A stretch of 55,865 bases of DNA from an uncultured Desulfovibrio sp. (GTDB taxonomy: Bacteria > Desulfobacterota > Desulfovibrionia > Desulfovibrionales > Desulfovibrionaceae). The notes under the pieces are model-generated. The model ran no database searches, was not told the DNA's origin, and worked only from the letters and a program-made list of their open reading frames with translations. Both the position numbers and the translations under genes were made by a program. Each line of letters starts with the position of its first letter. The first letter of the stretch is position 1. Location of the stretch: positions 1-55,865 of the forward strand of contig NZ_CALUWS010000014.1 of the NCBI RefSeq assembly GCF_944324525.1, read 5' to 3'. Positions 24,921 through 28,908 of this stretch are shown here, piece by piece.

Positions 24921-25953
<1,033 letters not shown>

Positions 25954-25964
<11 letters not shown>

Positions 25965-26355
25965 CAACTCCGGCAGAAAACTTTCGCGCACGCCGTCGCA
26001 CCGCAAGGCTCTGCTCCACAATCTCGCCAAGGCGCTTCTTATCCACGGCCGCATCCGCACCACGGAAATGAAGGCCAAGGAACTGCGCGGCGTGGTGGAG
26101 CCCCTGATCACCCTTGCCAAGCGTAACGACATGCATGCTCGCCGTCAGGCTTACCGCGTGCTGTGTGATTATGCGCTTGTCAAGCGCCTCTTTGATGAAA
26201 TCGGGCCCAAGTTTGCCGGCGTCCCCGGCGGCTACACCCGTATCATGAAGCTGGCCATGCCCCGCAAGGGCGATAACGCCCCCATGGCGATCATCGAACT
26301 GACCCGCCTCGAAGAGGCCGCGGCCGCTTCTGAAGCTGCCGCTGCCACTGCCTAA
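25954..26355 (+). CDS. rplQ: 50S ribosomal protein L17
   Basis: 133 aa. [29 protein letters not shown] start and the [21 protein letters not shown] segment. ATG 25954 lies inside rpoA (11-base overlap) with AGGAAG upstream. The C-terminus adds an Ala-rich tail ([14 protein letters not shown]). Last gene of the cluster. Confidence 0.97.
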
Positions 26356-26377
26356 CGGCGGATCCGCAAGCATTCTG

Positions 26378-26401
26378 AAGGGGCCTCAGGGCCCCTTTTT
26401 T
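26378..26401 (+). terminator. intrinsic terminator of the ribosomal protein cluster
   Basis: GGGGCC (26380-26385) and GGCCCC (26390-26395) form the stem around TCAG, followed by T x6. It ends transcription after rplQ, 17 bases before selD. Confidence 0.9.
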
Positions 26402-26417
26402 GTTATAAGGAAACAGT

Positions 26418-27476
26418 ATGCGACTTCTGGATAAGGCAAGAGCGGCCGGCTGAGCGGCCAAGGTGGCTCCAGAGGCTCTGGAGCGAATTCTTTCCGGCGT
26501 GCTTTCCGCCTTGCCTGCCGGGCTCGAGTCCCGTGTGCTGGCCGGAAGAGCGCGCAATGAGGATGCCGTGGTCTTGCGCCTGCCTCCCGGCAAGGCCCTG
26601 GTGCAGACGGTGGATGTGCTCGCGCCTGTGGTCAACGATGCGTATGCCTTTGGGCGCATCGCCGCTGCCAATGCGCTGTCGGATGTCTACGCCGTGGGTG
26701 GCGAACCCTGGTCAGCCATGAACATCTGCTGTTTCCCGACCTGCCTGCTGGGGGACGACCCGGAAGAGATCCTTGCCGGTATCCTGCGAGGCGGGCTTGA
26801 CGCCCTTATCGAGGCCGGCGCAGTGCTTGCCGGTGGGCATTCCGTGCAGGATGACGAGCTCAAGTTCGGGCTGGCTGTCAGCGGACTTATCGATCCCGAG
26901 CGTATCGCCGTCAATTCCGGCTTGCTGCCCGGGCAGAAGCTGATCCTGACCAAACCCATCGGGACCGGGGTCCTGTCCACCGCCGTCAAAGCGCAGTGGG
27001 ACGGCTGTGAAGAGGCCGAAGTCCAGCTCAGCCGGTGGTGCGGTCGTCTGAACAAGGTGGGTGGCGGCATCATCGCCGCCTACGGGCTGCGGGCGGCCAC
27101 GGACATCACCGGTTTTGGCCTTGGCGGGCATCTGTTGGAAATGGCTCGTGCGTCCAGTGTTCGCGTCGCCGTGGATACGGAAAGCGTTCCCTTGCTGCCG
27201 CAGGCGCTGGAGTATGCTCGTTTCGGCTTCATCCCTTCAGGTAGTCATGCCAACCGCCTGTACTGTGCGCCCCATACGGAGCATGCCTGTGTGCTGGATG
27301 AAGCGCTGGAGAGCCTGATCTTTGACGCGCAGACATCCGGCGGGCTGGTGCTGGCGGTCCCCCCGGAGCAGGTGTCCGCCATCAGCGATGAGCTGCGTCA
27401 AGCCGGGGATCTGGCGGCCTGCATCGGTGAAGTCCTGCCCGCTGTCGAGGGAAAAGCCGGATTGCTGCTGCGCTGA
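26418..27476 (+). CDS. selD: selenide, water dikinase SelD, itself a selenoprotein (UGA = Sec12)
   Basis: 352 aa when the in-frame TGA at 26451-26453 is read as selenocysteine. The enzyme makes selenophosphate from selenide and ATP. Codons before the TGA give [11 protein letters not shown] and those after give [13 protein letters not shown], so Sec12 takes the place of the catalytic Cys in the family's GC-x-x-K loop (here G-U-A-A-K). Downstream [55 protein letters not shown] and the AIR-synthase-like C-terminus are complete. AAGGAA precedes ATG 26418. A hairpin suited to a bacterial SECIS follows the TGA. Annotating from the next ATG would lose the active site. Confidence 0.93.
26454..26486 (+). 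promoter_or_regulatory. candidate bacterial SECIS element in selD
   Basis: Seven-bp perfect stem GCTCCAG (26466-26472) / CTGGAGC (26478-26484) with a 5-base loop AGGCT, starting 12 bases past the UGA. Position within the coding sequence and a G in the apical loop agree with bacterial SECIS elements that recruit SelB. Confidence 0.7.
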
Positions 27477-27481
27477 CAATC

Positions 27482-27510
27482 TTGCGAGCCTGCTTTCTCT
27501 GTGCTAGAGG
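27482..27510 (+). promoter_or_regulatory. possible promoter of tRNA-Leu
   Basis: TTGCGA, 17-base spacer, TAGAGG, about 12 bases before the tRNA 5' end. Weak match to sigma-70 boxes but correct geometry. Confidence 0.35.
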
Positions 27511-27521
27511 TCATGGGCAAG

Positions 27522-27605
27522 GCGAGAGTGGCGGAACTGGTAGACGCACTGGACTTAGAATCCAGCGGTTCATCCGTGGGGGTTCAATTCCCCCCTCTCG
27601 CACCA
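27522..27605 (+). tRNA. tRNA-Leu (anticodon TAG)
   Basis: Acceptor GCGAGAG pairs with CTCTCGC, then discriminator A and encoded CCA. Anticodon stem CTGGA/TCCAG encloses loop CTTAGAA, giving anticodon TAG (CUA codons). A long variable arm (CGGTTCATCCG) marks class II. Its 3' half is the left attachment site of the integrated element and remains intact. Confidence 0.96.
27557..27605 (+). repeat. attL: 49-bp direct repeat, 3' part of tRNA-Leu
   Basis: Begins AGAATCCAGCGGTTCATCCG and ends CTCTCGCACCA; identical to 34613-34661. It covers the anticodon stem 3' side, variable arm, T arm and CCA. An integrase gene lies 160 bases inside. Confidence 0.93.
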
Positions 27606-27631
27606 CTAGAAATTACAACCACTTGAATAAT

Positions 27632-27703
27632 AGTATAGCCCGTTGACCTTTGGTTCTTACACCCATGAGTGTAAGCAACCAGAAGCAACCAACGGGCTAT
27701 ACT
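27632..27703. repeat. nested inverted repeat between attL and integrase
   Basis: Outer 14-bp perfect arms AGTATAGCCCGTTG / CAACGGGCTATACT (27632-27645, 27690-27703). Inner 7-bp arms CTTACAC / GTGTAAG (27656-27662, 27669-27675). It may end integrase transcription or be part of the attachment region. Confidence 0.75.
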
Positions 27704-27761
27704 GTTATACGCTCTTGGCCTTATGGGAGAGCCTTCATTTCTTACTCCACTTCCCCTTGTG

Positions 27762-28808
27762 TCAGTTCCCTAAAAGTGAGGCCGCTGTACGCAGATCTTC
27801 AGGCGAAAAGTGGGCGTACCGGGCAGTTGTCGTGATGCTCGTGTGTCCCATCCATTCCTTGATGAGCGGCAGCGAGACTCCGGCCTGTGAGAGCCGTGTG
27901 GCGCAGGTATGGCGCAGCATGTGCGGCACGAACTGTGGGTCTTCGCTCATTCCCATGTGGTACCGAATAATATCCCACGGGCGGCGGAGCCATTCGTTGC
28001 TGCCTTCGGGAAACAAGCGCCCGCTTCCCCCGCAGGCTTCCATTCGCCGTTCAATAATGGGCCGCAGCTTTTCAACAAGCGGGATGGTACGCGGGTGACG
28101 ATTTTTCGTCTTCCATGCCGTGAGCGTCCCGCGCTCAAGGTCGATGTCTCGGCATTCCAGCCGCCAGAGTTCGCCGCAGCGGAACCCTGTGTAAAGCAGG
28201 CACATGACAGCGTCTTGTACGTCCGGCAAGGCAAGGCACTCAATAATAATGAGCATCCGTTCCTCTTCTTTGCGGGACAGGAAGCGGATACGATGCTCCG
28301 ACTCGCGCCGCTTCGGCATGCGCGGCAGGACAGGGAGCGCGCCCCGTTCGTGTGCCGTGCGCAGGATACGGGACAGGCAGGACAGTTTCCTGTTGATGGT
28401 CGCGCCACTGTTGCCTTTGGCGGCACAGTGAGAAACAAATCCGTCAATGGCGGACAGTGTTATGTCAATAATGGGGCATGTCTCTCCAAAAAAGGACAAG
28501 ACCTGCTCCACATTGATATGGATGGTGTCCTGAGACGCCTTGTCCGCCCAGACGGTTTGCCATGTACGTTCCACGGCTTCCTTGAGCGTCCATCCGCGCC
28601 GTGCGGCCTGCGGCTTTTCCTGGCAGAGAGTGGAAAGTAGTTCCTGCCGTGCGGCTATGGCCTCTGGCATCGTCCGTGCCGTGCGTGTCTTGCGGCAGCC
28701 GTCAACAGTCACGTCCACAATGTAGCCGCTTCGATGACGGCGAATGCCACGCGGCAGAGGTTCGGGCAGGGGAGGAAGGGCGGGAAGGGTCGGGCGTCTT
28801 GCGGGCAT
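27762..28808 (-). CDS. tyrosine recombinase/phage integrase
   Basis: 348 aa. An N-terminal arm-binding region (GIRRHRSGYIVDVTVDGCRKTRTARTMPEAI) is followed by a SAM-like core-binding domain and a C-terminal catalytic domain. Catalytic residues: Arg210 (TGFRCGEL), Lys near 235 (TKNRHPR), His296/Arg299 (PHMLRHTCATRL), His322 (MGHTS) and Tyr331 (TARYAHF); all are present, so it should be active. ATG 28808 has AAGGAG. The 3' end faces attL, the usual position for tRNA-targeting integrases. Confidence 0.95.
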   Translation of the reverse strand: MPARRPTLPALPPLPEPLPRGIRRHRSGYIVDVTVDGCRKTRTARTMPEAIAARQELLSTLCQEKPQAARRGWTLKEAVERTWQTVWADKASQDTIHINVEQVLSFFGETCPIIDITLSAIDGFVSHCAAKGNSGATINRKLSCLSRILRTAHERGALPVLPRMPKRRESEHRIRFLSRKEEERMLIIIECLALPDVQDAVMCLLYTGFRCGELWRLECRDIDLERGTLTAWKTKNRHPRTIPLVEKLRPIIERRMEACGGSGRLFPEGSNEWLRRPWDIIRYHMGMSEDPQFVPHMLRHTCATRLSQAGVSLPLIKEWMGHTSITTTARYAHFSPEDLRTAASLLGN

Positions 28809-28908
28809 AGTGGTTCTCCTTATGGCGGCTGGTAGTCGGGAAATACTGGGCGGCGAATTGGTCAAGGATGACGGACAGGGGCGGGTCGGTAAGGTCACGG
28901 GAAAGCAT
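28702..28908 (-). CDS. possible small protein overlapping the integrase start (68 aa)
   Basis: ATG 28908 has a good GGGAG site. The N-terminal MLSRDLTDPPLSVILDQFAA looks like a real helix, but the last about 33 codons overlap the integrase N-terminus in another frame and are Ser/Pro/Arg-rich. It could be a coupling ORF for integrase or a chance frame. No family recognised. Confidence 0.35.
   Translation of the reverse strand: MLSRDLTDPPLSVILDQFAAQYFPTTSRHKENHYARKTPDPSRPSSPARTSAAWHSPSSKRLHCGRDC

Follow-up and report, generated by a model that had tools for sequence, protein, structure and literature searches.

Selenophosphate synthetase (selenide, water dikinase; SelD) occurs in forms that have cysteine and in forms that have selenocysteine (Sec) at the active site. 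The solved structure 3u0o, which we take to be SelD of E. coli, is Cys-type, with a residue, Cys17, that we assume to be essential; the structure 2yye, presumably a Cys variant of the Sec-type SelD of Aquifex aeolicus, has the active-site loop G-C-A-A-K. Table 3 of Zhang et al. (2006; PMC1794560) gives SelD as a selenoprotein in both D. vulgaris and D. desulfuricans. The same paper counts 38 SelD selenoproteins and three Sec-to-Cys events in SelD, mentions SECIS-like remnants in some of the genes that had changed to Cys, giving no family names where it does so, and suggests that Sec decoding is perhaps maintained for SelD in some species. For the bacterial SECIS hairpin, the model in PMC13188914 (section 5 and Fig. 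2 legend) has a loop of 3-9 nt, a stem of 4-16 bp and 16-37 nt from UGA to loop, together with G in the first two loop positions and a minimum free energy of -7.5 kcal/mol or lower (PMC13188914).

Here we analyze a selD gene in the window, by which we mean the whole stretch of 55,865 nucleotides of Desulfovibrio DNA that was analyzed. The encoded protein belongs to the same family as Cys-type 3u0o and has an active-site loop that aligns with it, but 3u0o has Cys where the window has the Sec codon, and no UGA. The loop of 2yye differs from the loop of the window, G-U-A-A-K, only in having C in place of U, although the lineage of 2yye is distant from that of the window. D. vulgaris and D. desulfuricans share with the window the genus name and the selenoprotein family, alongside a Sec-containing FdhA, but theirs are other genomes, likened here by their listing. 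Because a Sec-type SelD was tabulated for two Desulfovibrio species in 2006, the novelty of a Sec-type SelD in the window is low. The results below indicate that SelD of this Desulfovibrio very probably carries Sec at its own active site.

The selD gene and its in-frame UGA codon

The initial annotation had proposed that a frame beginning at ATG 26418, with a good ribosome-binding site, encodes SelD and is interrupted only by a UGA at the catalytic Cys/Sec position, and each of these points holds (Table 1). With the TGA read through, the frame scores 318.3 bits against the NCBIfam selD model TIGR00476 (cut-off 125), which identifies the product as a SelD equivalog, and a domain search finds AIRS and AIRS_C domains in it. 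The TGA is the sole internal stop of the frame, lies in the context ...RAAG-U-AAK... and aligns with Cys17 (residue counted from the alignment) of 3u0o, the best solved relative. Homologues with Cys at this catalytic position exist (loci L033, L042, L066 and L067).

Table 1. Features at and around selD, in coordinates of the window
Feature	Position	Strand	Remarks
rplQ (ribosomal protein L17)	25954..26355	+	upstream neighbour of selD; taken to be rplQ from its sequence and from its location behind rpoA
Intrinsic terminator after rplQ	26377..26401	+	T-run ends 16 nt before the selD ATG
Shine-Dalgarno-like AAGGA	26407..26411	+	6 nt before ATG 26418
selD, selenide, water dikinase (selenophosphate synthetase)	26418..27476	+	352 aa, predicted Sec at residue 12
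In-frame TGA, codon 12	26451..26453	+	catalytic Cys/Sec position, from frame reading and alignment
Bacterial SECIS hairpin (candidate)	26466..26484	+	8 bp, apical loop GGC at 26474-26476
Terminal TGA of selD	27474-27476	+	second UGA, taken as the true stop
tRNA-Leu(UAG)	27522..27605	+	downstream neighbour of selD

A start at GTG 26463 would place the TGA in a 5' untranslated region and yield an N-terminally short SelD, and this GTG does open an uninterrupted ORF of 337 aa that still scores 297.3 bits with TIGR00476. We consider such a start extremely unlikely, because the short form would be without the Cys/Sec residue and the conserved Lys that follows it, because the motif G-U/C-x-x-K around the codon is kept in all 66 loci of the family and order that were read, and because in four Cys-type relatives the residues concerned sit within a stop-free open frame. 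The frame from ATG 26418 supplies a likely start, active site and length for selD, a gene that could be annotated short.

The 66 loci are L018-L085 without L070 and L071, which are at selA; L018 is the window itself. The position of codon 12 reads TGA in 62 loci, TGT in 2, TGC in 2 and no other codon in any, and thus the relatives offer no instance of a codon for neither Cys nor Sec, which the initial annotation had named as counting against its reading. A TGA is one base away from the Cys codons TGC and TGT, and might accordingly arise by sequencing error or as a nonsense mutation in a dead gene; yet 62 of 66 loci, from separate genomes, share the TGA at this codon in an otherwise open frame, which brings the probability of this explanation close to nil. 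Since the 66 loci are no random sample, genomes G018 and G102 having been chosen for showing no TGA, we quote TGA rates from the genome searches. In the first search, of 61 genomes including the window's own, the match covered the N-terminus in 47, with one TGA in 44 of these and none in 3 (G009, G018 and G036); 12 of the 61 genomes gave no match, and a partial match without the N-terminus (G055) and weak hits (G001) fall outside the 47. The family search gave a match in 242 of 288 genomes, and among the 150 matches listed 147 had one TGA and 3 had none (G009, G102 and G036), the location of the TGA at the SelD codon being verified only in the loci read. In the named genome collection, from which very near records are possibly omitted, the nearest loci come from metagenome-derived Desulfovibrio; that of Candidatus Desulfovibrio gallistercoris, for one, is 84% identical. 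The terminal codon is UGA as well in 33 of the 62 Sec-type selD genes, so that one message would use UGA in both meanings.

The strong terminator upstream of selD has a similar layout in the five nearest loci (L048-L052), where it ends 13-17 nt before the selD ATG; at such a distance, there and in the window, a selD promoter downstream of the terminator would have little space. No sigma-70-like promoter was matched in 25900-27760, so that transcription of the ribosomal operon may read through into selD.

The tRNA-Leu(UAG) gene downstream of selD is present in all of the 10 loci scanned, among them that of the window. Soon after it, at 27762-28898 on the minus strand of the window, is a gene for a phage-type tyrosine recombinase (Pfam PF00589, 94.5 bits), which suggests an integrated element downstream. 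In several outer members of the family and order, rplQ and selD are separated by a LysR-type gene: in L041 (456-1460) and L076 (544-1482) it matches LysR_Sec_metab NF040786, a selenium metabolism-associated regulator family, with 270.5 and 284.7 bits (cut-off 250), and in L038, L039, L044, L075 and L085 it was recognized by eye. The window has no LysR-type gene between rplQ and selD.

A candidate SECIS hairpin and its conservation

The hairpin downstream of the UGA begins exactly 12 nt past the TGA, at the distance given for a candidate SECIS in the initial annotation, has a calculated folding energy of -11.9 kcal/mol and, counted from the sequence, places its loop 20 nt from the UGA. With 8 bp and a 3-nt loop that begins with G, it lies within every limit of the bacterial SECIS model quoted above; it can alternatively be drawn as the 7-bp stem proposed earlier, with a 5-nt loop. 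Under the same rules, 57 of the window's 1607 TGA triplets, both strands counted, are followed by a stem of at least 8 bp, and such a stem appears in 1258 of 20000 synonymous recodings. Folding over 51 nt is at least as good in 518 of 2000 recodings. A 45-nt stretch has a z of -0.26 and is equalled by 79 of 200 shuffles, and the 19-nt hairpin has a z of -2.87 and is equalled by 1 of 200. The results indicate that by most measures the hairpin of this single sequence is hardly above chance and is weak evidence, and the TGA-triplet, recoding and shuffle counts rule out the use of single-sequence statistics as proof of a SECIS. After the terminal UGA of selD, the longest stem under the same rules is 6 bp (z 0.82), and an Rfam search of the window at gathering scores returned two tRNAs only and no SECIS family.

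Comparison of the Sec-type genes shows that the hairpin is maintained. Among the 53 distinct sequences of the 62, standard pairing is found in 96.0% of hairpin pair cells, changes on both sides are found in 3 of the 8 pairs (20 cells), and RNAalifold recovers the same hairpin unaided. The covariation score, 0.201, is higher than in all 500 shuffles and all slides, and sliding the hairpin columns by 1-3 lowers every measure. The observed numbers of paired cells and of double-changed cells and the covariation score were each reached in 0 of 500 shuffles, the pair types in 1 and the pairs in 8, in a control that is inflated by the relatedness of the sequences. The 19-nt stretch folds at -7.5 kcal/mol or lower in 58 of 62 Sec genes and in none of the 4 Cys genes, and so do 3.4% of 18480 control stretches taken in the same phase from these 66 genes; the Sec genes that fall short are L037 (-7.3 kcal/mol), L076 (-6.7), L082 (-6.7) and L047 (-2.8). 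Third codon positions (62 loci, near-duplicates kept) hold one base in 95, 81, 65, 100 and 98% of loci in the stem, the 65% position belonging to a covarying pair, and in 100% at the loop G; counted from the TGA onward, codons 1-4 give 45-66% and codons 11-29 give 32-63%. Upstream of the TGA, outside the hairpin, a single third position is also conserved, at 84% (62 loci). We conclude that the hairpin is structurally conserved, with compensatory changes, that the four Cys forms have lost it or show it decayed, and that its conservation at one place in relatives, far beyond chance, is strong evidence.

Selenium genes of the genome and a single SelD

The components of the Sec-decoding trait, whose absence from the genome the earlier reading had named as counting against it, are all present in the genome of the window (2905649 bases in 93 contigs): selA (588.7 bits), selB (one 693-aa frame that matches model stretches 2-339 and 446-580, with 328.8 bits in total) and tRNA-Sec (selC) with anticodon TCA (UCA). 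A second hit above the tRNA-Sec cut-off is tRNA-Ser(UGA). The genome has a second UGA gene, that of the formate dehydrogenase FdhA, with one in-frame TGA, in V-U-HGP; it also has a SelU homologue (320.1 bits) and a YqeB-like hit that stays below the cut-off (192 vs 220 bits). Our search of the genome for a second SelD or a Cys paralogue found none: there is 1 match, and none of the four remaining hits exceeds 34 bits, against the cut-off of 125. With no second SelD found, the cell would need a Sec-requiring protein in order to make Sec, and the self-dependence proposed at the outset is supported to this extent.

Two observations might be taken to favor decoding of the UGA as Cys or Trp by a near-cognate tRNA instead of through SelB, with the hairpin incidental or an attenuator: the hairpin was also flagged as terminator-like, and some misreading would help to start up a self-dependent system. 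We nevertheless consider such decoding very unlikely, because 58 of 62 Sec-type genes keep the hairpin at one place behind the UGA and 4 of 4 Cys-type genes have lost it or show it decayed, and because the genome has the Sec genes; a minor level of UGA misreading may occur alongside Sec insertion. We conclude that UGA codon 12 of the only selD found in this Desulfovibrio genome is very probably decoded as selenocysteine.

From the gene content and the hairpin, we infer Sec insertion and SelD catalysis along the following lines. SelA would make Sec-tRNA-Sec(UCA), which SelB would carry, and binding of SelB to the hairpin 12 nt after the UGA would deliver Sec. Sec12, in a flexible Se-binding loop, would help to make selenophosphate from selenide and ATP. 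Selenophosphate would in turn feed Sec synthesis, including that for SelD itself and for formate dehydrogenase, and probably also, via the SelU homologue, the formation of tRNA 2-selenouridine.

Changes between Sec and Cys in relatives

The Cys-type SelD genes L033, L042, L066 and L067 belong to genomes G009, G036, G018 and G102, respectively, and the SelD tree requires two independent Sec/Cys changes, whose direction was probably from Sec to Cys, since Sec is the widespread state. G009 and G102 (1.4 Mb) have TGT and a decayed hairpin (-4.0 kcal/mol); G036 and G018, a sister pair on the SelD tree, have TGC and next to no hairpin at the site (-0.7 kcal/mol).

Three of the four Cys genomes (G009, G102 and G036) are small, 1.4-1.6 Mb, and in profile searches these three gave no selA match, no selB above cut-off and no SelU match. 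Their best hits with the tRNA-Sec model score 46.1 bits (G009), 46.1 bits (G102) and 48.1 bits (G036) against a cut-off of 47, compared with 72-83 bits for the tRNA-Sec-like top hits of other genomes; the hits in G009 and G102 are tRNA-Trp, and the hit in G036, just above cut-off, is tRNA-Ser(UGA). All three have YqeB above cut-off (338.7-351.3 bits), and in G036 its gene shares a contig with selD, at a distance of about 1.5 kb. PMC5029168 gives a SelD/YqeB/YqeC trait as selenium cofactor use, and by analogy SelD in these three genomes presumably serves a selenium cofactor. The fourth Cys genome, G018, retains selA, selB and tRNA-Sec(TCA) and gave no match to YqeB. YqeB is not a mark of Cys-type SelD, as the Sec-type genome G028 (UGA) also has it (334.5 bits). 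The SelD of G028 (L047), with UGA at the Sec codon and the weak hairpin noted above, is sister to the Cys pair G036/G018 and may be an intermediate between the Sec and Cys types.

Two further genomes, G025 and G064, are rated 100% complete and have selA, selB and tRNA-Sec(TCA). Neither has SelD above cut-off (best hits 37.6 and 41.5 bits vs 125), which reflects either an assembly gap or a missing SelD.

A genome whose sole SelD is a selenoprotein would need the whole Sec system for any use of selenium. That Sec-type SelD is in this way a lock in the genus, opened at least twice by UGA-to-Cys changes, is a proposal that we regard as evenly poised between right and wrong. In the pair G036/G018, G018 still has selA, selB and selC, and this suggests that the switch to Cys precedes loss of the machinery. 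The results support a picture in which the selenium donor of this Desulfovibrio is made by an enzyme that needs the product of its own reaction, and the order in which the steps of selenocysteine loss took place becomes testable through the relatives that have Cys instead of Sec.
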